43,931 nucleotides of DNA from Candidatus Gastranaerophilales bacterium (GTDB taxonomy: Bacteria > Cyanobacteriota > Vampirovibrionia > Gastranaerophilales > Gastranaerophilaceae): NCBI GenBank assembly GCA_947594025.1, contig CANQDZ010000010.1, forward strand, positions 1 to 43,931. The letters are read 5' to 3'. The translations under genes were made by a program, and so were the position numbers. Positions 5,001-20,561 of the stretch are shown here, one piece after another (the first letter of the stretch is position 1; every line of letters starts with the position of its first letter). The notes below the pieces were generated by a model, which was not told the origin of the DNA, made no database searches, and saw only the letters and a list, made by a program, of their open reading frames with translations.

Positions 5001-5090
5001 GAAAAAATGAACTTCGAACCTATTGAATACGTTAAAGACAAGTGTGGACGCTGTATGTATAACAAAATTTGCAGGCTGGATATAATATAG
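2046..5090 (+). CDS. UvrD/PcrA-like SF1 helicase fused to an AddB-type PD-(D/E)XK Fe-S nuclease
   Basis: A 1014-residue protein. The N-terminal half is a superfamily 1A helicase: Walker A GPGTGKT (35-41), Walker B VDEYQDT with D270/E271, helicase motif HGSKGREF and motif VI-like VGMTRAKYNL. The C-terminal 250 residues are a RecB/Cas4-like nuclease: C775 in LECPRKF, GTAVHKVIE, D893 in GKIDRI, and D907/K909 in YDYKTG. C1000, C1003 and C1009 complete a C-x224-C-x2-C-x5-C iron-sulfur staple as in AddB. A role in double-strand-break or stalled-fork processing is inferred. It resembles a one-polypeptide helicase-nuclease rather than a two-subunit AddAB; no partner gene is adjacent. It probably has its own promoter at 2011-2039, and the VWA gene begins directly after its stop. 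Confidence 0.9.
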   Translation: MVDLIEKIAKKPITPNQKQQECINSLKGIYMVLAGPGTGKTFTITHRIKNMLEKGVNPNKILCLTFSTAASDEMKNRIVKLTGDKASQIKVYTYHAFCNDIITQNPSIFNMTSNLKIIKPTQEIELMKRAIDRAELEFYVAPNAAKYFFAKDHITTVSNLNKERLSKEKYDEILSDTLVKELKELENEKYILEQEGKRITKKLTDAIEKLKKDIGKAKEVWKLKELYQEEKRKNDYIDFSDMINFVLDEFDSNPKFLSQIANGYDYILVDEYQDTNELQNALIFALTDYMKEKNVFLVGDDDQIIFGFQGAKDDNLETFRKRYPETHVICLNENNRSTQQILDLSYELMKQNKTRIEANPVFKNDNISKKLTAKNQDILANARKVKEWHFKDNLQEINEIINDIDILIKTQPSLKLSEIAVLSRERSYISKLAGMLKARNIPYQVDEGVNIFNIRSSILVYYYMKALINPKTNGEKLFALLSSEPFALDIDDYTKIFNESISVSKKIRKDFISLMRERKDFKNQEKVDKFLNTYDYLKTYIQTNNLRNSVVEIINRTDIIKFFFECELNLVDNVEGIKTLIDEAESYMDIDKTASLQDFVKYLDESVENEIGIETSKQTAVQNAIQLLTYHGSKGREFAYVYMPNLIAKKWEEFKGRPNQYKLITDVQKDDDIKDSELLRLLFVGMTRAKYNLTLSFADFVDGKAETLTKYIANLENVDIEKRYYDLENEDYLKQYQRSVSNEVYKNKEAFKKIIEYQISKLELSPSRLNDYLECPRKFLYSRIMEFDIEEKNSDASNFGTAVHKVIENAERMKLDAGFYPSLDKMLEEFDYMINHTRFSSEAAREKSLSNGKKMIKDYYSELTDISGDKLYAVEAKFDEIHLDDCKLSGKIDRIELNNDGTYSLYDYKTGQPVYSSQVEAGKSEERYYRQLCFYKYAWEKKTGQKVSDVCLIYLRDTSKNVRKFLGERDIDFIKNLIAETHKNIEKMNFEPIEYVKDKCGRCMYNKICRLDII

Positions 5091-5984
5091 ATGATGAAAA
5101 ACAAAAAAATACAGACGATTTTAATAATTTTACTGTCTCTTGCGGCTTACGGGACAACATATACAATAAAAGATAACGGAAAAGTGTATTCTTCGTCAGG
5201 CACTCAAATTCAAAGCCGGACCACTAATTATTACAATACATACACACCAAACAATTACGTTTCAACGAATGCCGTTCGCAAAGGAACGGCTGATGCCATT
5301 GAAATTGTTATGGATTTTTCCGGCAGTATGGTTGATTGGATTGATATCGCAAAGCTTACCATGACATCCGTTGTAGCACAAATATCCCCTCAAACCCTCG
5401 TCGGTTTTAGAGTATTCGGACAAAATACAAATAAGGCTGCAACAGGACAGGTTCAAAGTATAGTGTCAACTAAAGATAAGAAAGGGAAAACAGTCTACAA
5501 GGCATTAACCGGAAAACATTTGACACAATCAGGTGCTTGTTCTGCAACCGAGCAGGTGTCATCCGTCGCGCCTGCTGATGCTTCAAGACTTATAGCAGGT
5601 ATGAACACGGTTGATATAGGCGGCTCAACTCCCATGGTATTAGGTCTGCAAAAAGCTGCATACGGCGATTTTTCTCATCTTACCGAAAATATGAAAAAGA
5701 AAATTATATTAATTACGGACGGTGGTGAAAATTGCGGGGGTGACCCTTGTTATTTTGCAAAAACACTTATGAGGCAAAGGTCGGATATAACAATAGACGT
5801 TATTTTGGTTGCCTCAAATTCAAACAGGCTTCAATGTGTAACCAAGGCTACAAATGGCAACTTCTATAAAACAAAAAATCTTGGCGACTTTTCAAAGACT
5901 CTTGTACAATCAATGACAACAGATGTCTTTGATGCTCAAGACAGTGTTCAGCAGGGTCAAGGATATGAATTTATCCAAGACTGA
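5091..5984 (+). CDS. Secreted von Willebrand factor A (VWA) domain protein
   Basis: A 297-residue protein with an N-terminal hydrophobic signal sequence and then a VWA domain with a complete MIDAS. D75, S77 and S79 are in DFSGSM, a Thr lies in GGSTPMVLGL, and the Asp is in ITDGGENCGG. Several cysteines (ACSATE, NCGGDPC, LQCVT) suggest disulfides in an extracytoplasmic compartment. It is expected to bind a ligand through a metal ion; the ligand is unknown. The ATG abuts the stop of the helicase gene, followed by a second ATG at 5094. A TATAAT at 5081-5086 overlaps the end of the helicase gene, so it may be transcribed separately. It is convergent with the 6002-9808 gene, with only 17 bases between them and no terminator. 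Confidence 0.85.
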   Translation: MMKNKKIQTILIILLSLAAYGTTYTIKDNGKVYSSSGTQIQSRTTNYYNTYTPNNYVSTNAVRKGTADAIEIVMDFSGSMVDWIDIAKLTMTSVVAQISPQTLVGFRVFGQNTNKAATGQVQSIVSTKDKKGKTVYKALTGKHLTQSGACSATEQVSSVAPADASRLIAGMNTVDIGGSTPMVLGLQKAAYGDFSHLTENMKKKIILITDGGENCGGDPCYFAKTLMRQRSDITIDVILVASNSNRLQCVTKATNGNFYKTKNLGDFSKTLVQSMTTDVFDAQDSVQQGQGYEFIQD

Positions 5985-6001: not shown

Positions 6002-9000
6002 TTAGTGAAATCTTGCGTCCCTTTTTGCACTGATTTGACCTTTAGTCGGTACATAGAAATTTAAAACGGTATCATCAATAGTGATATCTTCGCCATTTTG
6101 AGTAACAATTTTGCCGTCTTTAACTTTGTACACAACATCATCATCAATAAATTTACCGTATTTTTCGCTGTATACTTTTCTAAATAAGGTTGTGCCTTCT
6201 TCAAGCGGAGAGCTGCCGTTGTCATCTCTTATCATAATTTCTTTTGTACTTGTTTGTGCGCTTGTTCCTTTAAAATCTTTTGCGGATTGATTTCTCGGAA
6301 TATTGTAGTTTGTTACAACGCTTATTGTTTTAGAACCTTTGTCATCATATTTGAAAATCGGCCATAATTGAAGTGTCGGATTAACAAGGGCTTTTTCGAT
6401 AGTTCCTTCTTCAAGCATTTTTCTAAAGTTTTCATGGTTATTGTTGCTTCCGTCTATATGGAATGTGTTTTCAATTGAGCTGTCAGAGAGGTCATTATTA
6501 TCAATAAAACGTCTTAAAGCTTCAACTCCGCCATTTTCAAGTATTTGGCTTACCATATAATTTAACGCGCCCATATTTGTACCTTCAGGGAAGCTTGCAC
6601 CTGATGAATCACTTACATTTAGCGAAACAGGATAACCGTTTCTTGTTGCGCTCATACCGGGTTCTTTATATAAACCTGATATTGCATTCATTTTCTTATA
6701 ATATTGTTTGTATCCTTCTTTTTCTTTCATTTCGTGGAGTATGGGGTTTCTGTTTCCTAAATACATATTTTTAGAAGGAGTTTCGTATCCTGTTTGTGCA
6801 AACTCAGTGCCGTTATAAAGTGTAGGAATGCCGGGGATTGCGTTCATCATTTCCCATAAGCCTTCTTGCATCTTCATAGGATTTTTCATCATTGTATAAT
6901 GTATTTCTTGCAGTTTAGAACCGTCTTCATCTTCAACGCCGGCCATTCTTATAAGGTCTTTTATTGTGACTTCATAAGGAAGATAGCCGTATGCATTAGC
7001 TCTTTTTAAGCTGTATTCGGAATTTTTGTCCTTTTGTCCGTTAGCTAAATACTTAACTGCTTCTCTGAGTTTTACTTTATCATCTTCGCTCAAATTTGCT
7101 TCATTAATTGCTTTTAACATTGCATCGGCAACCGCAATAGCTTTAGCAGAAATCCAAGCATAGTCATCTCTGCCGCCTGTTATTTTTGTTGCAAGGTCCT
7201 TATACTCCTGAGGCGCCTCAGATAGCGGGGCATCCTCTTTAAAGCCTGTTTTGTCGTTAAACAAGAATAATTGCATATCCAAAGGCAATGTATGCAAAAT
7301 GGTTGGTTTGTCGTGGTTATTTGTAAACGAGTGGCTCAATATAATTGCGTTTGCTTGGTTTTTATCAATAAATTGATCAACATTGCTCTTTAAAGCGTTT
7401 ATATTTCCTGCGCTGCCTGCTCTGTTGTATCCGTTTTCAGGGTCGACTCCCACAAATGCGGACAAGTTATTAAAATACGTAGAGTAGTTAGAACTTGTTG
7501 TTGAACCTGTTTCTGCCAAAAAATGCTGTTCAAGTTCGTCAGGATCCATGCCCGTGATGTCAAATTGTGCCTTTTCCGGATTATCGCTGTAGAATTCCCA
7601 CAAGTTTGTAATTTCTGAAATGATGTAAGCGGACGGGTTATAATCTTTTACGTTTTTGATAAATTCGCCCCAGAATTCTTTAACACCGCCTTTTCCGTTC
7701 CAAACATCATTGAAAGAAACACCGTTTTGGCTTCTTACCGCATCAAGGTCGCCTATATCTTTTGCGGCGTCAAATCTCCAGTTTAAACCGCCTTTGGCTT
7801 GCAATATAAGTGAATCTGCAACCCTAAAGTCCTCAAGCGATACATGGTTAAGCGCCTCTTTTGCCTTAAGTATCAAGTCTTGTTTGAAATAAATGTCGTC
7901 AAGAGTTTTATCAAGTCCTTTGTTTATATATTTAACAACTTGCTCTCTTTCATCGGCAGGTGTTGAAGGGGTGTGGGTAAGCATTGAATTCAATGTTACC
8001 TGCTTCAATTGAGCCAGATTAATATTGCCGTCTTCATCAATTGCTTTTTTATTCATTGCGTTCGCAAAAAGACTTCTCAAAATAGTGTTTGATAATGTTT
8101 TAACCGCATATGTTTTATATTCTTCATTGTTTTCAAATTCTTTTGGAATTGCATTTGTTATAACTTCATCAACATATTTTGTTAAAATATCTTGCACTTC
8201 ATTATTCAAAAATTCATTTTTAAATTCTTTCTGCAAGAATATTGCGCTTAATTCAGGACTTGTTTCCATTGATTGCATAGGAAATTCGCTTACATAGTCT
8301 GATACGGTTTTATTTTGTCTTAAAATGTTAGATTCTGCCACACCGCTAAATGCAACAAGCGTGTCATAATCAATATCATTTTTGGAAGCAATTTCTCTTT
8401 TCTTTTCGTCTCTTGATTGAGCCGTTCTTAAAAGTATGTCTGATTGAACCATTTCTGTCCAGTACGATGCAACCCCGTAGAGGTAATTTCTTGCATCTTT
8501 AAATCCTTTTTCCGTTCCGGGTTTTGGATTTGAAAGGTTCATTTTAATGATGTCTGAGTTGCCGTCCCAATATGTTGCACCTGAAGCATTACCTTTTGTT
8601 GAAATTTTATAGTTTGGGAAGGTCAAGAAGTTATCAAGGTCTTTTATGTCCTTGCACAGCATTGATTTTTTAGAACCAAATTCTTTTAATTTAGGGTCAT
8701 CGGGAGAAATTTCAAAATAAAACGGCTGAATTGAATCTTGGTGTGTTGTGATATCATAATGATCTTTTGGATTTGGAGTATCATAAGACGTTATAAGTTT
8801 ATCAGAGCTTATCTGTCTCGGGCTTGAAAGCCTGTCATCATAAAATTGGATATATGTTGCTTTTGACTTATCATAGTTTTCACCTTTTGGGTTAACAAGC
8901 CTTATACCTATATGCTTAAATGCTTCTGACTCATCATCGGCAACATCGTCAGGCAAAATGCCGAGTGAAGGTTTCGCATCAATTTTAAGCATATTGTGCA

Positions 9001-9808
9001 AAGGTGATAATTTGCCCCATTTTAGTACGTGCTGAACCATTGGCGACTGCAAACTTTGTGAAGTAAAAGCGCCGTCTGCAACGTAACCTTTTCCCTGTTC
9101 AAATAATTTCCAGTTAAAATCTTTAAAATCTTGCATATTGCCGCATTGATATGAGTTGTTAGGCCAATATTTATGCGAAGATGTAGGGTCAACACCAATA
9201 TCCGGCGTACTTATAATATATCTGTAAGGTTCAAATTCATCCGTGTTATCAAGAAGATAAATTAAACTGCCGATAGAACCGCCAAGTTTGTTAAAATGGT
9301 TTCTTACAAAATTAGGGTCAGAATTTAATTTTTTTGTTTTTGAATCATATTTGCCTTCAGAGTCAATAAATACATGATACATTGAACCGCCCGCAGGCGT
9401 AATACCTTCATTTTGTCCGCGCACAACCATATTCCATTTTGTATCGCCGACAAAACCTGATCTTGATTTATCAAGAATTACCGATTTGTTTTGCTTATCA
9501 TCTATAATCTTGTATCTGTAAGCATAAGCGTCGGTAAATTCGTCTTGGTTAATATCAAGTACATCTTGCCCGTTAAAATTGTATGACCTGACATTTTCTT
9601 TGTCCCAAACCCATTTTTCGCCTTTTTTAACCTTAGTTAAATCTGCAACTTCAAGGATGGCTGTTTCCCCGCTTTTTAATGAAACGGGAAGTATAAAACG
9701 CTCAACGGCATTGTTCATGTCGTCATATTCAGGCTTTGAGCCTGTAAAGCTTATTTTCTTGTTTTCAATTGGCTTAAAGCCGCCATTGTTGTTGATAGAA
9801 AATGTCAT
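6002..9808 (-). CDS. Very large divergent GH13 alpha-amylase-family protein
   Basis: A 1268-residue protein, far longer than a usual amylase (450-700). GH13 signatures are visible in the C-terminal half: nucleophile D680 in LNWRFDAAKDIGD, acid/base E732 in YIISEITN, and H832/D833 in SFTNNHDKPT. A conserved-region-I equivalent (VADGAFTSQS) keeps the Asp but lacks the usual NH. Hydrolysis or transglycosylation of alpha-glucans is expected; substrate unknown. The N-terminus (MTFSINNNGGFKPI, then ISFTGSKP) is not a signal peptide, so the enzyme is probably cytoplasmic or exported by an unknown route. It starts behind a Shine-Dalgarno AAAGGA. A TATAAT on the minus strand (9839-9834) in the 34-bp gap to the upstream GH13 gene may give a second promoter. 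Confidence 0.8.
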   Translation of the reverse strand: MTFSINNNGGFKPIENKKISFTGSKPEYDDMNNAVERFILPVSLKSGETAILEVADLTKVKKGEKWVWDKENVRSYNFNGQDVLDINQDEFTDAYAYRYKIIDDKQNKSVILDKSRSGFVGDTKWNMVVRGQNEGITPAGGSMYHVFIDSEGKYDSKTKKLNSDPNFVRNHFNKLGGSIGSLIYLLDNTDEFEPYRYIISTPDIGVDPTSSHKYWPNNSYQCGNMQDFKDFNWKLFEQGKGYVADGAFTSQSLQSPMVQHVLKWGKLSPLHNMLKIDAKPSLGILPDDVADDESEAFKHIGIRLVNPKGENYDKSKATYIQFYDDRLSSPRQISSDKLITSYDTPNPKDHYDITTHQDSIQPFYFEISPDDPKLKEFGSKKSMLCKDIKDLDNFLTFPNYKISTKGNASGATYWDGNSDIIKMNLSNPKPGTEKGFKDARNYLYGVASYWTEMVQSDILLRTAQSRDEKKREIASKNDIDYDTLVAFSGVAESNILRQNKTVSDYVSEFPMQSMETSPELSAIFLQKEFKNEFLNNEVQDILTKYVDEVITNAIPKEFENNEEYKTYAVKTLSNTILRSLFANAMNKKAIDEDGNINLAQLKQVTLNSMLTHTPSTPADEREQVVKYINKGLDKTLDDIYFKQDLILKAKEALNHVSLEDFRVADSLILQAKGGLNWRFDAAKDIGDLDAVRSQNGVSFNDVWNGKGGVKEFWGEFIKNVKDYNPSAYIISEITNLWEFYSDNPEKAQFDITGMDPDELEQHFLAETGSTTSSNYSTYFNNLSAFVGVDPENGYNRAGSAGNINALKSNVDQFIDKNQANAIILSHSFTNNHDKPTILHTLPLDMQLFLFNDKTGFKEDAPLSEAPQEYKDLATKITGGRDDYAWISAKAIAVADAMLKAINEANLSEDDKVKLREAVKYLANGQKDKNSEYSLKRANAYGYLPYEVTIKDLIRMAGVEDEDGSKLQEIHYTMMKNPMKMQEGLWEMMNAIPGIPTLYNGTEFAQTGYETPSKNMYLGNRNPILHEMKEKEGYKQYYKKMNAISGLYKEPGMSATRNGYPVSLNVSDSSGASFPEGTNMGALNYMVSQILENGGVEALRRFIDNNDLSDSSIENTFHIDGSNNNHENFRKMLEEGTIEKALVNPTLQLWPIFKYDDKGSKTISVVTNYNIPRNQSAKDFKGTSAQTSTKEIMIRDDNGSSPLEEGTTLFRKVYSEKYGKFIDDDVVYKVKDGKIVTQNGEDITIDDTVLNFYVPTKGQISAKRDARFH

Positions 9809-9842
9809 TTTTGTTCCTTTTGTTTACGCTTTAATTATACTA

Positions 9843-11729
9843 TCAGTTTAAGTATTCTTGTTGTAAAACATTCTGCGGGTTTGATAAAGTTTGGATATCT
9901 TTATCATCTATTTCAAATACGCAAGCTCTGCTTGCACCAAGTTCAACAGTTACATTGCCGTTCTTATCATTTTGGAATTTGCATTCTTCACCATAACTCG
10001 GCATTAAGTTTTTGAATTTTTGCTCGGCTGACAAACCGGGTATTGTGATTGTTCCGCCAACCGTTTTGTTTACGTTCCTGTTACCTATAAATACAAGAGT
10101 CTTGCCGTCTTTATGTCTCGCAAAAGATATAATTTCAGGGTTATTTGTAGGTAAAATGATAAATGAACCTTTTGTTATAACATCTTGTGCATTTTTCATC
10201 TCAAGTCTTACTTCACCGTTTGAAACTTCGTTATATTTGTTGTTTCTAAGGGCAAAAGCACTTTTTATTGCAGTTGATATTTCAGGGTGGTCTCCGCCAG
10301 GTTTTCTTGATTTATTGAAGATATCAAGTTTGCCTGCGTGAACGAAGCATTCGTTGTTATCTGTTTCCGTATCTTTAACGGTTGCGCCTTTATAAGGATA
10401 AATGTATGTATCGCCCGTTTGAGAGCCGTCTACCATATAAGGATTTACTTGAGGAAGCATACTTTGTAATATTGTAGTAAACATTACCCAAGGAGCTCCG
10501 CCGTATAACATTGGTGAATAATCGTCGTGAGTTGCAAATGAGCCGATTAATGACTTGGGTTGACCAATCTTATTGTTCATGTCGATATTTTCTTTTACAT
10601 ATTTGTAAAGGTCTTCATTTGTTGTCCATTGGTTGAAGATATGATATTGACCGTAATATGTATCAAAACCAACCTCTAACAGTTCTTGAGGTCTATCGTA
10701 CGGCATATTTAATTGAGGTGAGGCGTCTTCGTGGGTGTACGTTTCTGCAAGCCAAGCAAATTGAGGGTCTTTTGCATGAGAGTAATTTATAATTACATTC
10801 CAGAATTCAACGGGTTTTGCTCTGCCAACGTCAGCTCTAACACCGTCAAAGCCGAGTTCAACGCACATATCAACAAATTTCTTGTGAAGATCTAAAACAT
10901 CATTATTTAAAGTACGTGTTTGTTCGTTTTCAAACGGTTTTAGCATTCTGATATCTTGCCAGCCCTGCGGAACCTTTTCTTTTCCGTTTGAATCAGTTGC
11001 CATCATTGTGGGATTTTTGATACTGAAATCAACACTTGCACAAGACGGAAGGTCAAGCATAACTTTTATACCGCGCTTGTGGCATTCGTCAATGTAATAT
11101 TTGCATTGAGCAAATGCAACTTCAGGGTCATTTTTATCCATTTTAACAAGCTTTTTGCCTGTTTTTTGTTCGTACAATTTTTCAATTTGCGCTCTTGCTT
11201 CGGCAGGAGGATTTTCGTCTACAAGTTCAGGGTCTATGCTTAAGAAATCACTTGGTGAATATAGAGAACCTGCCGTACCAAATGCCTTTGTTTTGCCCGG
11301 CGGGTTGATTGGTAAAACGTGTTGAGTGTTGAAGCCGAGATTTACCATTTCATCAAGTCTTTCAACTGCGTTTACAAAGTTTCCGCTAACTTCATTACCT
11401 TGGATTAGTCCGTTTCCGTCTGTATCTTGAGCATTCATTGTTCTTGGAATAACTGCCAAGATATTAGCTTTATTTGAAGTTAACATTTCTTTTAAATCAT
11501 TTTTATAACCCTGAACTCTTGATTGAGCCTCTGTCACGCCTGCTGCAGACACGGTCGGAACTATTTGTCTGGACATTGCAAGTGCCGTCTGTGAAACCAT
11601 AGGGTTATATTCATAGTTTGGCAGGGCCGGTTGTTGTTGCACGGCAGGTGGCTGCGGCGCAGGTTGTACGCCTTGTTTGTTTAACATATTCATTAGTGCA
11701 GGACTTATTGGTTTACCGTTTTCAATCAT
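9843..11729 (-). CDS. GH13 alpha-amylase-family protein with an EF-hand-like calcium loop
   Basis: A 628-residue protein. A Pro/Gln-rich N-terminus is followed by an EF-hand-like loop DTDGNGLIQGNE (102-113) and a GH13 barrel: region I GIKVMLDLPS, nucleophile D300 in GVRADVGRAKP, acid/base E329 in WLAETYTH, and H401/D402 in FATHDDYSP. A C-terminal beta-sandwich-like segment (about 530-610, LVFIGNRN to ACVFEID) fits amylase domain C. All three catalytic acids are present, so it is probably active on alpha-glucans. No signal peptide is seen. Its ATG overlaps the upstream stop by 4 bases (ATGA), so it is translationally coupled to the membrane protein gene. The calcium loop may replace a classical amylase calcium site; this is inference. 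Confidence 0.82.
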   Translation of the reverse strand: MIENGKPISPALMNMLNKQGVQPAPQPPAVQQQPALPNYEYNPMVSQTALAMSRQIVPTVSAAGVTEAQSRVQGYKNDLKEMLTSNKANILAVIPRTMNAQDTDGNGLIQGNEVSGNFVNAVERLDEMVNLGFNTQHVLPINPPGKTKAFGTAGSLYSPSDFLSIDPELVDENPPAEARAQIEKLYEQKTGKKLVKMDKNDPEVAFAQCKYYIDECHKRGIKVMLDLPSCASVDFSIKNPTMMATDSNGKEKVPQGWQDIRMLKPFENEQTRTLNNDVLDLHKKFVDMCVELGFDGVRADVGRAKPVEFWNVIINYSHAKDPQFAWLAETYTHEDASPQLNMPYDRPQELLEVGFDTYYGQYHIFNQWTTNEDLYKYVKENIDMNNKIGQPKSLIGSFATHDDYSPMLYGGAPWVMFTTILQSMLPQVNPYMVDGSQTGDTYIYPYKGATVKDTETDNNECFVHAGKLDIFNKSRKPGGDHPEISTAIKSAFALRNNKYNEVSNGEVRLEMKNAQDVITKGSFIILPTNNPEIISFARHKDGKTLVFIGNRNVNKTVGGTITIPGLSAEQKFKNLMPSYGEECKFQNDKNGNVTVELGASRACVFEIDDKDIQTLSNPQNVLQQEYLN

Positions 11730-14188
11730 TTGTTATTCCCCGCCTTATTGTTTTCAGGATATTCTTTTTTGATGTTGCCAAATAATGGCTGTACAAGGAG
11801 CGTGACTGCTGCTAATGCAATTGTACCAGTTACAAAGATTTTTTTCCATATCTTATTATTATTTAAAGATCTGGCAATTGTTTTAATCTGACTTGCGAAG
11901 TTTGAAGCGCCAAGATAAGTTTCTTTGCTGATTGAACCTTCTTTTGTCATAAATTCTATTGCTTTTTCAATGCCTTCAGCTGCTTGCTTTGAAACACCTT
12001 TTTCAATATCGTAAGCGTTTTTATCAAACACGATATCTCTAAATATTTTATAAGCATTCGGCATACCAAATTTGTTTGCCGCATTTGAGGAACTGCTGCT
12101 ATAAATTGCTTCTCTTGCAAGTTTTGTAAGCTGTTCAATTGAAAAAGCTTCACTTACAAGACCGTTGTCTTTAAATGCTTGTGCTAATTCACCACTTTGA
12201 ATTCTTCTTTCAAGACCTGACATCAACAATAATTTTGATTTGAATGTTTCAATATTTGTTGTGCCCGTGCCTAAGAATGATTTTATTGAATTAACAAGAC
12301 TGCAGCTTTGTTTTCCTTCGCCAAGCATTGCTTCCATTAAGCCTTTGAATTTTGAACCTTGAGCAACATCTGAAGATATAGAAGAAGCATTATCCGTTAA
12401 CGATTTAACGACATTTGCAACTTCATCGGGAGTTTGAACCTTTCTGTACAAATCTTCAATGAATGTTTTATATTCGCCTTGATTTTGTGCTTTACCTTTA
12501 AAGAAGTCTTTCAAAACTTCCGGTACTTTTACTTGAGGATTTTCTGAAATAAGAGCTCTGATTTGTCCGTCAGTTAATCCCATTTCTTTAAATAGAGTAT
12601 TTACCGTATCCATATATTCTTTTGTGTATACGGATAAGCTTCTTTCACCTGCTACGGGATTTACCAATTTCATGAATTTGGCAACTTTTGCTCTTGTATT
12701 TGCGCCTAATTCTCTGTCAAATGTTTTTATTGTTTCAATAAATTCGCTGTTATCAACTTTTACATTTTCAAGAATTTGTTCAACTTCTTTTTGATTAAAT
12801 TGTGCGGGATTAGATAACAATTGTCTTACTCTGCCTATTGTTAAGGGTCCGTCACCAAGCATATTTTTAAGTTGTTCTTGAGTAAGAGTTTTTGCACCAT
12901 TTGCTGATTTTAGAGGAACTTGTCCTAAAATATCAAATAAAGTTTGTGCGTTAACTGAATTATGTTTTAGTTTTGCAACTTGTTTTGGGTCGCATCCTAA
13001 GCTCAACAATTCTTTCACAAGCTGAGAATGTGTGAAGCCGCCCCCAAGTTTTTTAGAAAGAGCTTGAATTTCTTCTTTGCCCAGAGCTTCCATTCCTTGA
13101 GATTTAACGTTAAGTGAAGATAAAGCCTTTAATAAATCTTCACTATCGTAGGATGCGCTATTTTTGTATAAAGATTTTAATTCATCAACAAGTGCCGTAT
13201 TTGACTCAAATTCAGCAATAACTTTTAAGTCATCGGCATTTTTAAATTCTTGGCTTAGGCTTGAAAGTCCAAGTTTTGAAGCTAATTCATCAAAGAAGTT
13301 TTCACCCAAAACGCCCTTTTGATGTCCTTCAAATAATTTATTAAGCTCTGCTTGAGATTTTGAAATTTCACCGCTTTTTGCTTGGATTGAATCAATGTAC
13401 GATTTAACGCCATTTGCCTCTGTTAATTTCCTAACTTTATTGAAGTCGCTTTTAATAATTCCTTTTTCTATATAAGGCTCTGCAACACTGCATGCCATAG
13501 ATGTCATAAGAGGCGTTGCAAATCCCGCAGTTGCCATCCAGAGAGTTCTGTTTTGAAGTGCGGTTTTTTGCATTTTTCTTTTGATTTTTTCTTCCCCGTT
13601 AGGACTATTTATATCAATACCCGTATTTTTGCCTATTTCCGTAAGTTCTTCTTTTGAATATATATCCCAAGGAAGGAATTGGTTATCCAAGAAGAAATCT
13701 TTCTTTTCTCCTTGAGCGCTTATATATTTTTTATCGATGTCAAATCCGTGAACCAATTTTGCAGGAAGATTTATGAATAATTTAGGCCAAGCAGCCATAG
13801 AAGTTAAGAAAGTTGCCGCACCTACAAATTCCATAACGGCTGTCTTTTTGTTTTTAGCATTTAGCGCAAGGAACGCAGCAATTAATGCGGCTCCAACCTT
13901 CATACCGATATCATTTATTCTTCCAAGCTGAGTATCATTTACGTCAGCGGTTTTAACGGCTTTTACAAAGTTTGCACAATCTTTTCCCGTGTCTTTGATT
14001 GCATCGGTTTGTCTTTTTATAAAGTTATCGTTAACTAATTTCGCCTTTGCTTCATTTGGTTTTGCTTCGTTTGCACGAAGTTTCAAATTTTCGTACACGT
14101 AATTTAAATCCGCACCGTTTTGATTAGCGTTTGGATTTCCGCTTTGAATTCTGTTTCTTAGAAGTGGGCTCATAGCTGAATTATTCAT
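11726..14188 (-). CDS. Large membrane protein of unknown function, paralogue of the next gene upstream
   Basis: An 820-residue protein with no family I can name. Predicted membrane segments lie near 94-138 (two), 215-240 and at the C-terminus (about 785-805); the middle 500 residues are soluble, helical and Lys/Glu/Leu-rich. The N-terminal 240 residues align by eye with the 395-residue neighbour: a WPKLFINLPAKLVHG block against TPKIVHTALKHSTG, FLPWDIYSKEEL against FYRVDLLTKDSE, and KTALQNRTLWMATAGFA against ATALDNITKYIVAATGVA. The ATG shares one base with the preceding stop (TAATG), which marks an operon. Being co-transcribed with two GH13 enzymes suggests a membrane scaffold or envelope role around glucan metabolism, which is unproven. 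Confidence 0.75.
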   Translation of the reverse strand: MNNSAMSPLLRNRIQSGNPNANQNGADLNYVYENLKLRANEAKPNEAKAKLVNDNFIKRQTDAIKDTGKDCANFVKAVKTADVNDTQLGRINDIGMKVGAALIAAFLALNAKNKKTAVMEFVGAATFLTSMAAWPKLFINLPAKLVHGFDIDKKYISAQGEKKDFFLDNQFLPWDIYSKEELTEIGKNTGIDINSPNGEEKIKRKMQKTALQNRTLWMATAGFATPLMTSMACSVAEPYIEKGIIKSDFNKVRKLTEANGVKSYIDSIQAKSGEISKSQAELNKLFEGHQKGVLGENFFDELASKLGLSSLSQEFKNADDLKVIAEFESNTALVDELKSLYKNSASYDSEDLLKALSSLNVKSQGMEALGKEEIQALSKKLGGGFTHSQLVKELLSLGCDPKQVAKLKHNSVNAQTLFDILGQVPLKSANGAKTLTQEQLKNMLGDGPLTIGRVRQLLSNPAQFNQKEVEQILENVKVDNSEFIETIKTFDRELGANTRAKVAKFMKLVNPVAGERSLSVYTKEYMDTVNTLFKEMGLTDGQIRALISENPQVKVPEVLKDFFKGKAQNQGEYKTFIEDLYRKVQTPDEVANVVKSLTDNASSISSDVAQGSKFKGLMEAMLGEGKQSCSLVNSIKSFLGTGTTNIETFKSKLLLMSGLERRIQSGELAQAFKDNGLVSEAFSIEQLTKLAREAIYSSSSSNAANKFGMPNAYKIFRDIVFDKNAYDIEKGVSKQAAEGIEKAIEFMTKEGSISKETYLGASNFASQIKTIARSLNNNKIWKKIFVTGTIALAAVTLLVQPLFGNIKKEYPENNKAGNNK

Positions 14189-15375
14189 TAGCTCACCTCA
14201 TATTCTTTTGTTTTGTCGACTTCTGATTTCATAGTGTTTGGATTTGATTTGAATTTGACGGTTGGAATTAACCAGTTTAGGAACATAGAAACCGCAGAAG
14301 CTATAATTAAAGCTTTTCCCGCGTGTTTTCTAATTGTGTCAAGATTGATGTTTTTAAGATTTTTAAGACTTTCTGCTATATTAATATTTTTAAGATTTCC
14401 AAGTTTTTTGCTAAAGTTTTCAGCCAATCCTGAAATACTTAGTTTGCCGTTTTTAAGTTGTTTAAGTTTAGAACCTTTGTTTGCAACATGCGCCGTATTA
14501 TCTCCTGTCCATAGTTGTTTGAAGCCGTCTTTGAGTGCTTTTCCTATTGAGGAGAATGTACCTTTTATGTTTTCTTTACTTGTCGGTTTCAAGATTTGGA
14601 CATTGCCGAATGCCGCTCTTGAACCAAGTGCAACACCTGTAGCTGCAACAATATATTTTGTAATGTTGTCAAGAGCCGTTGCTCTTGCAATTAAGTCGCG
14701 GATTTTGCCGTCAGCTATTTGGTTCGAAGCTTTCAATTCGCCTTTATATCCTGCTTTTCTTGCAATTTTTTCATTGTAGGCATCCATATTACCGTAATTC
14801 ATTTCTGAATCTTTTGTAAGCAGGTCGACTCTATAGAAATCTTTTGATGCGAACACTTTTGAATATTGTGTTCTTAATTTTCCTTTTTCCTCTCCGTTTT
14901 CAGGTAATTCGTTGATTTTGTTTGCGTAATACATATCAAGATTTACGCCGGTACTGTGTTTTAAGGCTGTGTGTACAATTTTTGGAGTGATAACTTTAGC
15001 AAGTCCGTAAAGGATGACACCTGCCGCAAATTGTTTTCCGCCAAAGCCTGCTGCTTTTGCATCTTGAGCGTTAAACTTGCAATTTGCAAGGTTATAAAGG
15101 GCGATTAAAGTAGCACTTCCTATAAAGCTTGCTGCAGAACCAAGTGATAAAAATTCGTGAAAATCGCTGTTTTTTGAACCCTTAAATCCCTTAGGAAAAT
15201 ATGTGGTGAAATTTTTTGCAAATTTATAAGCCCCGACTTTCACACCTGAAAGCGGACCTTGTTTATAGATATGCGACTCAGTGTGATAAAACTGAGCCTT
15301 CTTATCCTTATCGGATGAAATGTAATATCCTGTTTCAGGAATATTATTCATGCCTGTAGCGCTAATATTTTGCAT
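14188..15375 (-). CDS. Membrane protein of unknown function, first gene of the GH13 operon
   Basis: A 395-residue protein with hydrophobic segments near 78-97, 113-135, 240-260 and 350-372. It has a short N-terminal region (MQNISATGMNNIPETGYY) and a Lys-rich helical stretch with repeated LKNLKNIN-like units near 315-345. It shares a core with the downstream 820-residue protein, so the two are probably tandem duplicates that diverged, the second gaining a large insertion. The start has Shine-Dalgarno AAGGTGAT five bases before the ATG; a weak -10-like TATATA lies about 30 bases upstream. Function unknown. Confidence 0.75.
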   Translation of the reverse strand: MQNISATGMNNIPETGYYISSDKDKKAQFYHTESHIYKQGPLSGVKVGAYKFAKNFTTYFPKGFKGSKNSDFHEFLSLGSAASFIGSATLIALYNLANCKFNAQDAKAAGFGGKQFAAGVILYGLAKVITPKIVHTALKHSTGVNLDMYYANKINELPENGEEKGKLRTQYSKVFASKDFYRVDLLTKDSEMNYGNMDAYNEKIARKAGYKGELKASNQIADGKIRDLIARATALDNITKYIVAATGVALGSRAAFGNVQILKPTSKENIKGTFSSIGKALKDGFKQLWTGDNTAHVANKGSKLKQLKNGKLSISGLAENFSKKLGNLKNINIAESLKNLKNINLDTIRKHAGKALIIASAVSMFLNWLIPTVKFKSNPNTMKSEVDKTKEYEVS

Positions 15376-15527: not shown

Positions 15528-16493
15528 TTAGTTTAGGCTGACCTCATATCTTCCGCCCACAAATTTAACTTTAAAATTTAAAATCTCACCCTTATATCCG
15601 GAAGGCGGAGCCTTAAATGTTGAGGTTGTATTTAAAGAGTAAAATATTGCATCGTCAAGTTGTTCATTGTTTGATCTTTGAGTAAAAGTTTTATTCGTAA
15701 GATGTCCGCTGCTTTCAACTTTAAAAGATACAATCCCTATTCCGTCCCCTTGAATTTGAGTAAAATCAATTTTTGAAAACAACAAATTTCTAAGACCGTT
15801 TTTATACAGCTTAAGTTCTTGCGCGCTTGCTTCTTTATTTGCTGAATTTAAGTTTGCATTTGTTTTTTGAACGTTATCATTTTGAGATTTGATTGCGGGT
15901 TTTAACTGCAAGTTAGCTTGTGTATTTGTACTCGTTTTATCTTGAGCCGGTTTTGATTTTTCAGGTTTTGTGCTTGATGTTTTTATTGCTTGTTTATTGG
16001 CGTTATTTGAAGTGTTTACTTTTGCATTCTTGGAAGTCGTCTTATCAGAAGCAGTTTTTGAAGGCGTTTGAACCTTGACGGGGTTTATTTTGTTTACGAT
16101 ATTTTTAACAATATCTTGTTTCTTTTCTTTTATTTCTTCCTGAACAGGCGTTTTAACAACAACGGGGGCGTCGTCCCAAATTTCGTCAATATCTTTAATT
16201 TTAACTTGTGATACCTCTTTTACTTCTTCAGCAATTTTAATTTCTTCTTCTGAATTTCCGACAAAGATTAAGGATAAAATTGATAAGACAATGCAAATAA
16301 CAAAGATTGAAACAGAAATCGGGTCAAGGCTCTCTTTAATTCTTTCAATAAAGGGGTACCTTTCTTCAAAAGTTCTTTTATAAGCTTTTTCTTCCGTTTT
16401 TTGTTCTATAATTTCTTCAAAAACGTCATTTCCGCAGTCGCAAAAATTCGGCTTAACTTTATATTCGCTCTGGCATTCTGTGCATTTAAACAT
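15528..16493 (-). CDS. Zinc-ribbon, single-TM protein with TonB/TolA-like C-terminal domain
   Basis: A 321-residue protein. An N-terminal zinc ribbon (CTEC near 4-7 and CDCG near 18-21) is followed by a cytoplasmic stretch, one membrane helix (about 56-76, SVSIFVICIVLSILSLIFVG), a long Lys/Thr/Ser/Asn-rich linker and a C-terminal domain of about 85 residues. That domain reads GIGIVSFKVESSGHLTNK and then LDDAIFYSLNTTSTFKAPP, as in TonB/TolA C-terminal domains. The topology fits an inner-membrane protein reaching across the periplasm. There is no ExbB/ExbD here, and the linker lacks TonB's proline richness. It is the last gene of a six-gene operon; its ATG shares one base with the preceding stop. 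Confidence 0.75.
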   Translation of the reverse strand: MFKCTECQSEYKVKPNFCDCGNDVFEEIIEQKTEEKAYKRTFEERYPFIERIKESLDPISVSIFVICIVLSILSLIFVGNSEEEIKIAEEVKEVSQVKIKDIDEIWDDAPVVVKTPVQEEIKEKKQDIVKNIVNKINPVKVQTPSKTASDKTTSKNAKVNTSNNANKQAIKTSSTKPEKSKPAQDKTSTNTQANLQLKPAIKSQNDNVQKTNANLNSANKEASAQELKLYKNGLRNLLFSKIDFTQIQGDGIGIVSFKVESSGHLTNKTFTQRSNNEQLDDAIFYSLNTTSTFKAPPSGYKGEILNFKVKFVGGRYEVSLN

Positions 16494-17299
16494 TATCTTG
16501 TGACTTTTTCTATATCATTATAATCTGATGGTGTACTATATTTTGTTGTACCTTTTGACATTTTCCAGCTGCCTGAGAAAAAGTTTGATACCCTTTCAGA
16601 GCCTTTTGGAAAGTCTAAAATACTTTTTCCCTGATAACTTCTTATAACGGGTGCTATATATTCAATAGCGTAAGGCGTATATTTAGGAGTTGTGGAGTAT
16701 GTATTTATATTAGTTATTCTACCATACTTGTCAACCGTAAAAGAAAATTTAAAGATAATACCTTCAGGAATGTAAGGCATTTTAACGTCTTTCATAAGGC
16801 TATTTTGAATTTTTGAATGCCAGATGTTCCACGCAATAAGTTCTTCTTGTTCAATTTGTTCCTGCGTTTTTTGTGTTTTTTGCGTTGTTTGAGTGCTTAC
16901 CACAGGCTCGGGCGCCTTAACTGTTGTTGTCGTCTGCGTTTTGCTTGATAGATTTGTTTTTGTTTTATTATCCGCACTTTTTGACATTGAATTTTTTGTT
17001 TGTTTAGACACCGCATTATCGGTTTTTTTTGAAATTTCTGTTTTTGTTTCCTGTTTAGATTGGTTTTTAACCTCTTTTTTTACAACTTTGTTTTCATTTT
17101 TGGATATTTCTTTTGAGGGAATTACCTTGACCTCTTTTATAACAGTTTTTTCTTGCTCTTTTTGATTGTTGTTTTCAACCGTTACATAGCTATTGTCATA
17201 AATTTGGATTTTATTGTGCATAGCAGGCTGTTTAACCCCGATAATAAGGGTTAAAACAACCAAAATTGCTATAAAAGTTTTAATTAAAACATTAAACAT
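16493..17299 (-). CDS. Single-TM protein with Lys/Thr-rich linker and TonB-like C-terminal domain
   Basis: A 268-residue protein. An N-terminal membrane anchor (about 5-24) is followed by about 110 residues of Lys/Thr/Gln/Ser-rich linker and a C-terminal TonB-C-like domain (IIFKFSFTVDKYGRITNINT, then PYAIEYIAPVIRSYQGKSIL). Same architecture as the following gene but without a zinc ribbon, so the pair is probably paralogous. It is separated by 2 bases from the FHA-like gene. Expected role: a periplasm-spanning connector between the inner membrane and an outer-membrane or wall partner. The partner is unknown. Confidence 0.75.
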   Translation of the reverse strand: MFNVLIKTFIAILVVLTLIIGVKQPAMHNKIQIYDNSYVTVENNNQKEQEKTVIKEVKVIPSKEISKNENKVVKKEVKNQSKQETKTEISKKTDNAVSKQTKNSMSKSADNKTKTNLSSKTQTTTTVKAPEPVVSTQTTQKTQKTQEQIEQEELIAWNIWHSKIQNSLMKDVKMPYIPEGIIFKFSFTVDKYGRITNINTYSTTPKYTPYAIEYIAPVIRSYQGKSILDFPKGSERVSNFFSGSWKMSKGTTKYSTPSDYNDIEKVTR

Positions 17300-17301
17300 T
17301 C

Positions 17302-18915
17302 TTAATCTTTATCGACTTTGGATAAAAGCTCATCGCAAGCGTATGCGTCAAATTTTGTTTGACTCAGCATATATGTTTCGGCAATCAATAATGCAGTCGG
17401 CACAAGAGCTGCAACAAGGCTCAAGAACAAACCTTTAAGGTCGCCGCCTATTTCTTGTCCAAAATATGATACGTTCATTGAAAATTCAATAACGATGATT
17501 GAAAGACCTATTGCAAAGGATCTTCTTGCATCAATATTTAATTTTCTAATGCCTTCAAGTCCGTATATTTCAACACCATGCTGCATAAAATTGCTGAAGC
17601 CGTCTTGCTTAATAACATTTGAGCCTTGAATTTTCTTTAAGCATAAAAAGGCATTTACAAACGCAAAGAATGCAAAAATTATCATAAACGCGGAAAGCAC
17701 CAAAAACACGGGGCTAAATCTTAAGCCTGAAACCCTTATCCAGCCTGCAGCTTCAGGGAAGCACATTGCAAGAGTGTTTGAAACACCGTATGCCAAAAAC
17801 GGAGCAGTTAAAATACCCAGTATGGTTTCACCTGCAGATTTAATTTGAAGCATAAATAATTTGTCTTTAATGTTGTTGATTTTCGTTTTAGATAGGCTGT
17901 TTATAAACCTTTCAATCCATTGACCGTAGTTATTTAAAACGGCTTCAAAATCTTCTCTGTATTGTATCTTATCAAGCTGTGTCTGACATTCCGTGCTATT
18001 GTGTTTAAAATATCCTGTTGCCATTGAAAGTGTTACGGTTGTAAGCACAAAGAACAATGAAATTAATATTGCGAAAGGAGCAAAACCGTTTGGCGCAATG
18101 TAATATAAAACATTTATGAGGTATATTGCGCCAAAGAACAGTGTAGGTAAAAACAGCATAAATTTTTCCGCAATTATGCTTGTGCCGTTACCTTTTCCGC
18201 CCTTATTCTGCAAGTATAAAAACACCCCTTGTTTTAACATTAAACCTACCGCGTAAATTATAAGCGCATAAATAAATATTAATTTTAGGTTTGTTGGCAT
18301 TTGAATAACATTTTCCGCCTCAGACAAAGGAAGTCCCGTTAAATAATTTGAAACACCAAAACTGAGCAAAAACGATGCGAACAATAAACCTATATGAAGA
18401 ACAATTCCGCCTTTTGAATTCATGGAGAGTTTTTTCTCAAGGTCGCTTATTTGAGATGAAATCTGCTTTATGACCGAGACTCTTTTTGCTTCGATATCTG
18501 ATTTTTGTTTCTCTATTTTAATTTTTGCGTCAGTTATGGCGCCTGAACCGTAAAGGTTTTGCATATCTTCTTTTGTAAAATCCCGTGACGCAATTGAAGA
18601 TACGGAATTTGAGGCTTGCAAGCTTTCTTCCGCAACTTTAATTGTTATAAAGTTATCGCTGTCTTTAACCGTAATTTTTATAACTTTGTCTGCTTCAATC
18701 CTTGGCGCTAAGGGTTCGCCTTTAAATAAAAGATTTGGATTATTAAAAGGATTTATTATTGTAAAACCATGAGTATCGGGGTTATATTGAACGGTAAGCA
18801 AAAAGTCAAAGCCAAAATCAACCTTGAGATTGCAGTTTGCACTGTTTCCTATATTTACAAAATCATTTCCCGTAAATGTTTTTTCGCCAAATGGTGTATG
18901 TATTGTGAAAGCCAT
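17302..18915 (-). CDS. FHA-like domain fused to a multi-spanning membrane protein
   Basis: A 537-residue protein. The first 100 residues look like a forkhead-associated beta-sandwich (FVNIGNSANCNLKVD, then LLTVQYNPDTHGFTIIN). The usual FHA Gly-Arg and Ser-His pairs are degenerate, so phosphothreonine binding is doubtful. A short coiled coil (about 130-165) follows, then about eight membrane helices from residue 170 to the end, with a soluble loop of about 65 residues near 310-375. The ATG has a good Shine-Dalgarno (AAGGAG), 9 bases after the VWA gene. It is probably the membrane core of the six-gene complex, with the FHA-like domain in the cytoplasm. Confidence 0.65.
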   Translation of the reverse strand: MAFTIHTPFGEKTFTGNDFVNIGNSANCNLKVDFGFDFLLTVQYNPDTHGFTIINPFNNPNLLFKGEPLAPRIEADKVIKITVKDSDNFITIKVAEESLQASNSVSSIASRDFTKEDMQNLYGSGAITDAKIKIEKQKSDIEAKRVSVIKQISSQISDLEKKLSMNSKGGIVLHIGLLFASFLLSFGVSNYLTGLPLSEAENVIQMPTNLKLIFIYALIIYAVGLMLKQGVFLYLQNKGGKGNGTSIIAEKFMLFLPTLFFGAIYLINVLYYIAPNGFAPFAILISLFFVLTTVTLSMATGYFKHNSTECQTQLDKIQYREDFEAVLNNYGQWIERFINSLSKTKINNIKDKLFMLQIKSAGETILGILTAPFLAYGVSNTLAMCFPEAAGWIRVSGLRFSPVFLVLSAFMIIFAFFAFVNAFLCLKKIQGSNVIKQDGFSNFMQHGVEIYGLEGIRKLNIDARRSFAIGLSIIVIEFSMNVSYFGQEIGGDLKGLFLSLVAALVPTALLIAETYMLSQTKFDAYACDELLSKVDKD

Positions 18916-18924
18916 TTTTTCTCC

Positions 18925-19593
18925 TTATCTTCCTATTGCATCTAAAATTTTTCTTGAAACTTTATCTATCGCATATTGTGAAGCTACGATAAGTTTTGTT
19001 TCTCCTAAAATCGGAGAAAGTTTTTCCTTAACCAAATCCAATTTTTCGGGGTGTGCGTATAAAAATGCCATTGATATCTCAGGAATTTGCTCTTGGACTT
19101 TTTTTACATTATCGGGAAGTGTATCCCAATTAATTTGTTTGTCGGCAGCACCCTCATTTTCAAGGTCACCCACAACAATTACTGACGGAACGTAGCCTTC
19201 TTTTTTCATGGTAAGAGCGTGCGAAAAAGCTTTTTTTAAACCTTCTCCGTATGCCGTTCCGTAATCTTTTTCGTCAAGCTTTGCAAAAGCATCAAATGAC
19301 TTTGTAATTGCTGAAGTTTCAAGCGGTGAACCTTCATAAATTAAGTATGATTTTTCAGAAACTTTTAAGATTTTTATTTCATCTTCAGGGTCTAAGATTT
19401 TGCACAGTTGTCTTATAAATTTTATCTGCTCGGGCAGGTTTTTTTGATTTGAGGCTGATGAGTCCACTACAAATATAACCGCAGCCTTTTTAAAATCATC
19501 GGGTTTAAAATTTTTAAGCCCGCTCCAGAGGAGTTTTCCAAAAAAGCATACAGCCAGTATTATTAATCCTAAAATTATAAGTTTTTTATTCAT
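18925..19593 (-). CDS. Membrane-anchored VWA-like protein
   Basis: A 222-residue protein. One N-terminal membrane helix (about 4-22) leads into a VWA-like Rossmann domain. DxSxS is present as DSSAS in AVIFVVDSSAS, and VIVVGDLENEG takes the place of the usual TDG strand, so the second MIDAS acidic position is altered but an Asp remains. It most likely faces the periplasm. It lies between the glycine-zipper gene and the FHA-like gene with 9-base gaps on both sides and Shine-Dalgarno AAGGAGAG. VWA plus FHA gene pairs are common in bacterial assemblies, but this set does not match one I know. Confidence 0.7.
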   Translation of the reverse strand: MNKKLIILGLIILAVCFFGKLLWSGLKNFKPDDFKKAAVIFVVDSSASNQKNLPEQIKFIRQLCKILDPEDEIKILKVSEKSYLIYEGSPLETSAITKSFDAFAKLDEKDYGTAYGEGLKKAFSHALTMKKEGYVPSVIVVGDLENEGAADKQINWDTLPDNVKKVQEQIPEISMAFLYAHPEKLDLVKEKLSPILGETKLIVASQYAIDKVSRKILDAIGR

Positions 19594-19602
19594 ATTCTCT
19601 CC

Positions 19603-20307
19603 TTAGTATAAAAATGAAATGCTTAGAGGTTTTTCAAGAGTGATTTCTATTTCCGTATAGGCGGGAATTTCCGCATCAACTCCTTTTTCCGCGCCTGACA
19701 TAATAATGCCTGAGCCTGCACCGACCCCTGCCCCTATTGCCATTGCTTTGCCTATTGAATCACTGCCGCCAATCAGAGCGGTAAGAAGACCCGCAAATAA
19801 GCCAAACGCCGCACCTGCTACAACTTTGCCCGCAGCATTTGACAATTTGCCCGTTGAATCAACCTTGAAATCAACTTTTTCCGCTTGAATGTTATATGTT
19901 CTGCCGTCAGGCGTCACAATTTGAGTGAAATTTATTTGAACGGAACCGTTTCTGTATGCATAAGTTGCGTGATTTGCCTTGGATAATGTGCCGTAAACAA
20001 CGCTTCCTTGAGATGCTATAACTCTGTTTTCAAATATCCAATCTTTTGTTAAAACGGCCGTAACGTTATCACCTTTGTTTGCGGTTGCCGTGTTTATCGG
20101 TGTTCTTAAGTAAACACCAAACTTCTCTCCTGCTGATATTTTGCCGATATAACCCTTAAGCGTATCTTCTGATATCTCATTTGCGGAAGCTGCCTCGGTC
20201 GTGTTGTCAAAAATGTATTTTTTGAGTTCAACCTGTTGTTCGTCGGCTGCGGCAAGAGGTGCAAATATAATTATTGTTGAAAGAATTATACTTAAAATTT
20301 TTTTCAC
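19603..20307 (-). CDS. Exported glycine-zipper protein with TrbI/VirB10-like beta fold
   Basis: A 234-residue protein. N-terminal signal peptide ending near AAADEQ. A beta-rich central domain follows (RTPINTATANKGDNVTAVLT, then VIASQGSVVYGTLSKA), reminiscent of TrbI/VirB10 C-terminal domains. Next is a glycine/alanine-rich zipper (about 165-205, VVAGAAFGLFAGLLTALIGG and GAGVGAGSGIIMSG), and the C-terminus is IPAYTEIEITLEKPLS. It is expected to sit in the periplasm or outer membrane and possibly oligomerise. The start is GTG, overlapping the preceding stop by 4 bases (GTGA), which supports translational coupling. Confidence 0.7.
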   Translation of the reverse strand: MKKILSIILSTIIIFAPLAAADEQQVELKKYIFDNTTEAASANEISEDTLKGYIGKISAGEKFGVYLRTPINTATANKGDNVTAVLTKDWIFENRVIASQGSVVYGTLSKANHATYAYRNGSVQINFTQIVTPDGRTYNIQAEKVDFKVDSTGKLSNAAGKVVAGAAFGLFAGLLTALIGGSDSIGKAMAIGAGVGAGSGIIMSGAEKGVDAEIPAYTEIEITLEKPLSISFLY

Positions 20308-20561
20308 TTTTGCTTAAGCTCCGTTGTAGTGGTTGTTTGGATAATGGTTGCAGAACCGTCCCCGTTTATTTTTAATACTTTTTCGATAACATTCAAGTTA
20401 AAAGGCTTTCTTGTTTTCGGTTGAATTACAAAAGTCATTAAACTAAATATGGCAAGGACTAAAATAACTGCAGTCAGCGCCATTTTTACAGTCCATTTTG
20501 CAATGGAAATTACTAAAAACAACAAAACTATAAAAAGCACCGCGGCAACTATATAATTCAT
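20304..20561 (-). CDS. Small membrane protein, first gene of the six-gene envelope operon
   Basis: An 85-residue protein. Two closely spaced hydrophobic helices (about 3-22 and 27-48) are followed by a short polar tail ending in Thr/Gln/Lys. No family recognised. The start has Shine-Dalgarno AAAGGA; a -10 TATAAT on the minus strand (20587-20582) gives a leader of about 15-20 bases. Its position at the head of the operon suggests an accessory subunit. Confidence 0.7.
   Translation of the reverse strand: MNYIVAAVLFIVLLFLVISIAKWTVKMALTAVILVLAIFSLMTFVIQPKTRKPFNLNVIEKVLKINGDGSATIIQTTTTTELKQK

Follow-up and report, generated by a model that had tools for sequence, protein, structure and literature searches.

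The Gastranaerophilaceae carry a conserved, family-restricted envelope system that links VirB10-like, TonB-type and VWA proteins, a combination found in no described system, and that includes an eight-TM protein family without a recognised fold. We identified it in a 43,931-nt stretch of DNA (the window) from a 1.51-Mb, 98.9% complete genome of the Gastranaerophilales. These relatives of cyanobacteria are common in the gut, and the open PMC literature that we searched says little about their envelope or their life at the surface. Domain folds, predicted TM segments and co-inheritance back the trans-envelope machine proposed in the first-pass annotation, without proving it. The version that we favour, tentatively, is that the proteins form a trans-envelope complex that holds a VWA surface protein much as the Glt system holds CglB, while standing outside Glt itself.

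The block is a minus-strand run of six packed open reading frames, A–F, from position 20561 to 15528, all present where the first-pass annotation had placed them. Its six-gene set is real; the full set is larger, with a seventh part, G, on the plus strand outside the interval that it covered. The features of the locus are as follows.

A, 20304–20561, minus strand: small membrane protein; sequence and profile comparison (hhalign) with E.
B, 19603–20307, minus strand: exported protein with a VirB10/TrbI-type beta-domain and a glycine-zipper two-helix segment; Pfam, AF2 and structure search.
C, 18925–19593, minus strand: N-terminal TM anchor and predicted periplasmic VWA domain with intact MIDAS; Pfam VWA_2 and residue conservation.
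D, 17302–18915, minus strand: cryptic FHA domain, predicted cytosolic, and eight-TM domain; AF2, Foldseek and alignment.
D, FHA-fold domain (residues 1–95), 18631–18915, minus strand: AF2 model, Foldseek and residue scan.
D, eight-TM domain (about residues 165–520), 17356–18423, minus strand: AF2 model and Foldseek.
E, 16493–17299, minus strand: one TM, a Lys/Thr-rich linker and a probable TonB-like C-terminal domain; hhalign to F.
F, 15528–16493, minus strand: zinc ribbon, TM at residues 61–79, Lys/Thr-rich linker and TonB_2 at residues 247–311; Pfam and conservation.
G, 5091–5984, plus strand: secreted VWA protein whose MIDAS reads DxSGS, with four invariant Cys; neighbour clustering and homologues.

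The intergenic distances from A/B to E/F are −4, 9, 9, 2 and −1 bp; B starts with GTG and overlaps A by 4 bp, and E and F overlap by 1 bp. Spacings within this range (−4 to 9 bp) suggest that A–F form a single transcription unit. Promoter and terminator consensus scans of the block gave scores no higher than those of shuffled sequence.

Several lines of evidence show that the genes travel together. First, the order A-B-C-D-E-F recurs around D homologues, collected on 46 genome contigs, in tens of genomes at about 35–80% protein identity, and is thus conserved far beyond chance. Synteny covers 45+ loci, with the block in dozens of Gastranaerophilaceae genomes, so the neighbourhood check suggested by the first-pass annotation found the genes together in relatives rather than scattered. 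The block is complete (ABCDEFG) at 16 loci and otherwise reads CDE (8), BCDE (5), CDEF (4), BDEFG (4), BCDEF (3) or some other set (6), with some of these tallies cut by contig ends. Almost all loci share a core of D, E and C, each of them predicted to be membrane-anchored. Subtypes without B, C, F or G occur at L018, L020, L026–L040 and other loci.

Second, the parts share their distribution. Among 59 relatives, C and D occur in the identical 27, with one spurious D hit left out; full-length F with its zinc ribbon is confined to D-positive genomes, as is full-length G (11 of 11). Pairwise distances between the parts correlate (r 0.56–0.88, reached by 0 of 500 permutations), which shows co-inheritance; plain vertical inheritance would also give such values, so that co-evolution and species history are inseparable in them. 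The left-out hit (genome G043, E 2.4e-4), which would have placed D in another family, is an unrelated protein whose match vanishes with a profile.

Third, in a sample of 289 genomes from the class, D was found in 138, in some of genus g52 as the FHA-like domain only, and all genomes listed with a D match belong to the Gastranaerophilaceae. The block is missing from nearly all class genomes sampled outside this family and from many near-complete genomes within it; some genomes hold two or three copies of D. One of the 27 genomes with both C and D (G051; 66% complete, 3% contamination) belongs to another family and carries the block, probably as a binning artefact or contamination. We take the block to be private to the Gastranaerophilaceae, uncultured and non-photosynthetic relatives of cyanobacteria that are represented here by metagenomic assemblies only. 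The nearest named relative of D, at 79% identity, comes from the metagenome-assembled genome Cyanobacteria bacterium SIG30, and many others from Candidatus Gastranaerophilales.

D is the most conserved large protein of the block. Foldseek assigns residues 1–95 of its AF2 model (pLDDT 82, built with 32 homologues) to the FHA fold with probability 1.00, the best match being Rv1747 FHA-1 (target-normalised TM-score 0.75). The FHA-like, eight-helix description in the first-pass annotation holds for the fold and the helix count, although Pfam FHA matches 0 of 32 homologues; it needs the correction that the canonical phosphothreonine (pThr)-binding Arg/Ser/His residues are unconserved. As the Arg after Gly (position 24) is absent in 32 of 32 homologues and no conserved His was found in stretches 20–43 and 52–67 of the same alignment, the domain is probably a protein-binding scaffold rather than a phosphopeptide reader. 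Stand-alone 99-residue FHA-like domains related to that of D, with no membrane domain, lie beside an efflux-type gene set in genus g52 (L114, positions 5021–5320; L115, positions 5039–5338; also L108 and L109).

The eight-TM domain of D gave no confident fold match to solved structures with Foldseek, and sequence searches of solved structures with D, C and B returned nothing usable. Its two 4-TM halves are weakly similar (hhalign E 1e-4), weak evidence that the domain may have arisen by duplication of a 4-TM unit. The halves, residues 125–318 and 319–530, each carry a GVSN motif, located close to where TM1 and TM5, respectively, finish. Five acidic or polar residues in the predicted membrane helices are invariant: E362, E476, N480, E512 and T513.

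The proposed periplasmic and outer-membrane parts agree with the first-pass description. B, there called a TrbI-like glycine-zipper protein, has homologues that match Pfam TrbI (12 of 24, best 4e-8) and Gly-zipper (up to 14 of 24). Its AF2 model matches TrwE/VirB10 (Foldseek E 2.1e-7), and every one of the 22 PDB hits with E under 1e-3 is a protein of VirB10 type; the beta-domain of the model is confident and the glycine-zipper segment of low confidence. C is, as proposed, a membrane-anchored VWA protein: it scores above the Pfam VWA_2 cut-off (1.7e-6), and the MIDAS residues D44, S48 and D143 are invariant in 27 of 27 homologues. From its N-terminal charges and TM, the VWA domain is predicted to be periplasmic. 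The two helices described earlier for A correspond to a pair of hydrophobic stretches readable in the window sequence, but the majority of homologues are shorter and have just one. A shares a TM and P-x-M-H-K segment with the N terminus of E (hhalign E 1.2e-9), suggesting that it is a shortened relative of E.

Both of the TonB-like proteins that had been proposed find support, F by its own Pfam match. F exceeds the Pfam TonB_2 cut-off (24.7 versus 22 bits), TonB_2 is found in 23 of 24 homologues, and the zinc ribbon (C4, C7, C18 and C20; CxxC...CxC), predicted to be cytosolic, is invariant in 24 of 24. E has no meaningful Pfam match; its own TonB-like character, supported more weakly, comes only from a profile–profile comparison in which its C terminus matches the TonB region in F (hhalign E 5.8e-6, probability 85%). 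The suggested profile search for TonB_C, FHA and VWA domains thus returned TonB_2 in F and VWA in C above cut-off, and no Pfam FHA in D. Membrane topology throughout the block is taken from hydropathy and is supported less firmly than the domain assignments.

Neighbour clustering brought out G, a family of about 304 residues encoded convergently on the opposite strand directly after F in 21 other loci, with an N-terminal signal peptide evident on inspection of its sequence. Many loci, those of subtypes CDE, BCDE and CDEF, have no G next to the operon, so that it cannot be the sole ligand of the complex. The BDEFG subtype lacks the membrane VWA protein C and keeps G, and a VWA protein is thereby retained. 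In the window, G is split from F by four minus-strand genes at 6002–15375, an insertion found in this genome only among the loci seen; these genes are large and of no assigned function. We rejected them as block members: none of the four has relatives near the block elsewhere, and relatives of one, dn1 (14188–15375), sit at other sites in most genomes, its family being widespread in the order.

In the assembly that we favour, D would be an inner-membrane hub whose FHA fold serves as a cytosolic scaffold. A, C, E and F would be single-span arms with periplasmic parts that reach toward the outer membrane and end in the VWA domain of C and, on long linkers, the TonB-type C termini of E and F. B would be a VirB10-like ring protein on the outer-membrane side, and G an exported VWA ligand, putatively an adhesin, at the surface or in the outer membrane. 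E and F could then grip or pull B or G through their TonB-type domains, tying adhesion outside mechanically to D and the cytoplasm, as CglB is held by Myxococcus Glt. Synteny, the co-occurrence of C and D, the confinement of G and F to D-positive genomes, the folds and the distance correlations all support this reading; from them we infer that the parts assemble physically, that B sits at the outer membrane, that G is exposed at the surface as an adhesin, and that force is coupled between the parts. Several points weaken it. The window copy of G has no lipobox, and CglB is a lipoprotein; G is absent at many loci; the glycine-zipper model is of low confidence; and VWA, FHA and TonB domains are present in many unrelated systems.

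The same parts could instead be read as an export apparatus for G or for other proteins of the envelope, with B as the gate in the outer membrane and D with C, E and F as the gate in the inner one. The VirB10 fold of B, the TonB_2 C terminus of F with its TonB-like counterpart in E, and the location of the gene for the secreted G next to the block would fit such a role. However, domain searches of the block found no secretion ATPase, VirB4/VirB11, VirB7/VirB9 or secretin, the signal peptide of G appears ordinary by sequence inspection, and relatives of B also precede TonB–ExbBD operons and are present in several copies per genome with no known link to export. We consider export improbable.

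A second question for the trans-envelope complex that we favour is its energy source. The absence of ExbBD, an ATPase or a secretion core, noted in the first-pass annotation, is true of the block, which contains no ExbB/ExbD or other MotA/ExbB family member, but ExbB, ExbD and TonB are encoded elsewhere in the genome. The single MotA/ExbB family member of the source genome sits in a TonB operon on another contig, in the order B paralogue, TonB, ExbB, ExbD, ExbD and a large AsmA/TamB-like gene (names other than ExbB assigned by eye). This operon occupies L112 positions 6887–14017 (genome G000, contig C2, about 72.9–80.0 kb). ExbB-family genes are present in 59 of 59 relatives. In 25 of the 29 genomes from the order, ExbB has a B paralogue at a distance of about 2 kb, and this proximity ties VirB10-like B proteins to TonB-type transducers; the pairing of a VirB10-like glycine-zipper protein with TonB–ExbBD may stand in for TonB receptors. 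A search of the source genome for a TonB-receptor plug found none, which makes classical nutrient uptake unlikely.

The housekeeping TonB of this genome has the S-x3-H element and lacks the full S-x3-H-x6-L-x3-S pattern; the Ser-x3-His start belongs to the motor-docking motif described in PMC12204202. The SHLS docking pattern is absent from the TM of all E (29) and F (24) homologues, and a His lies within or next to that segment in 3 of 29 and 1 of 24, respectively. Given this difference, the block would be powered indirectly, not powered, or powered through D; with no ExbB/ExbD in the block, force generation is left unexplained, which counts against the reading that we favour. One way out is that D is itself a new proton- or ion-conducting motor that takes over the role of ExbBD and energises E and F. 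Such a motor would fit the invariant residues in the predicted membrane helices, the weak internal duplication and the missing ExbB/TolQ docking His in E and F, but D resembles no known channel or motor in sequence or fold, and those residues may be structural; we regard it as the least probable of the alternatives. A broader version, an undescribed machine in which D stands in for ExbBD/TolQR as the motor and either drives or gates arms of TonB type that act on a VirB10-like outer-membrane ring and an exported VWA adhesin, is doubtful, although less so.

Equally doubtful is a Tol–Pal-like integrity or tethering complex, in which TonB-type arms and the VWA domain would bind outer-membrane or peptidoglycan partners and so keep the envelope together or sense its stress, with G as a periplasmic accessory and no adhesin. 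The TonB-type C termini on long linkers, the failure to find a TonB-dependent receptor in the source genome, the predicted membrane-anchored core shared by almost all loci and the subtypes that do without G would all suit a tether. A general integrity role should, however, be universal, and many near-complete members of the family lack the block; the separate TonB–ExbBD operon and the ubiquity of ExbB relatives also count against it.

Searches of Pfam, NCBIfam, PHROGs, PADLOC, solved structures and open PMC literature tied the block to no known system, in line with the first-pass view. The closest comparison for the holding complex that we favour is Agl–Glt of Myxococcus xanthus. GltG combines FHA and TonB domains (PMC3169522), GltG and GltJ are TolA/TonB-like (PMC5349195), and CglB is a VWA adhesin kept at the surface by Glt (PMC13104615). 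Both systems have an FHA domain in an inner-membrane component (D in the block), TonB-type C termini on single-TM proteins, a trans-envelope layout (in the block, a proposal) and a VWA protein presented outside, CglB in one and, putatively, G, which is predicted to be exported, in the other. Unlike GltG, which fuses FHA and TonB domains, the block places FHA on the separate eight-TM D and TonB_C on F; it has no recognised AglRQS-type motor or TPR proteins GltD/GltE/GltI, and adds the VirB10-like B and a window copy of G that is not lipobox-bearing. Without an AglRQS-type motor or an FHA–TonB fusion, membership of Agl–Glt fails.

Other systems share single parts. F, and probably E, follow the TonB/TolA plan of TM, long linker and TonB-type C-terminal domain, but the block has no motor, their TM segments lack the SxxxH docking site, no receptor plug was found in the source genome, and F has a cytosolic zinc ribbon. 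C resembles the vWA force transducers of PMC12204202 as an inner-membrane-anchored, periplasmic VWA protein, but is not beside tolQ and has neither their SHLS His nor their transpore Asp (TM His in 1 of 27 homologues, Asp in 0 of 27). B shares the fold of VirB10/TrbI from type IV secretion, but consists of the C-terminal domain only; other type IV secretion parts go unrecognised in the block, with no VirB4/VirB11 ATPase or VirB9 found in the six genes by Pfam or NCBIfam. SjdR of Anabaena (PMC8262864), by description a TM protein from a cyanobacterium, combines GltJ/TonB-like features with an N terminus in the cytosol, but it is short and has no VWA or FHA partners described.

Three further candidates were rejected. 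PADLOC matches to defence systems are weak and confined to the low-complexity linker of F. For a phage origin, PHROGs gave a single match, of the VWA region of C to a family of unknown function (1e-5), the rest being insignificant. Weak hits to the Bacteroidetes T6SS (TssR_VWA in C, 0.022; TssO in three D homologues, best 0.054) come with no other T6SS parts. Elsewhere in the window, the plus strand encodes at positions 97–1920 a large protein whose match to EF-hand falls slightly under the Pfam cut-off (best 1.5e-5).
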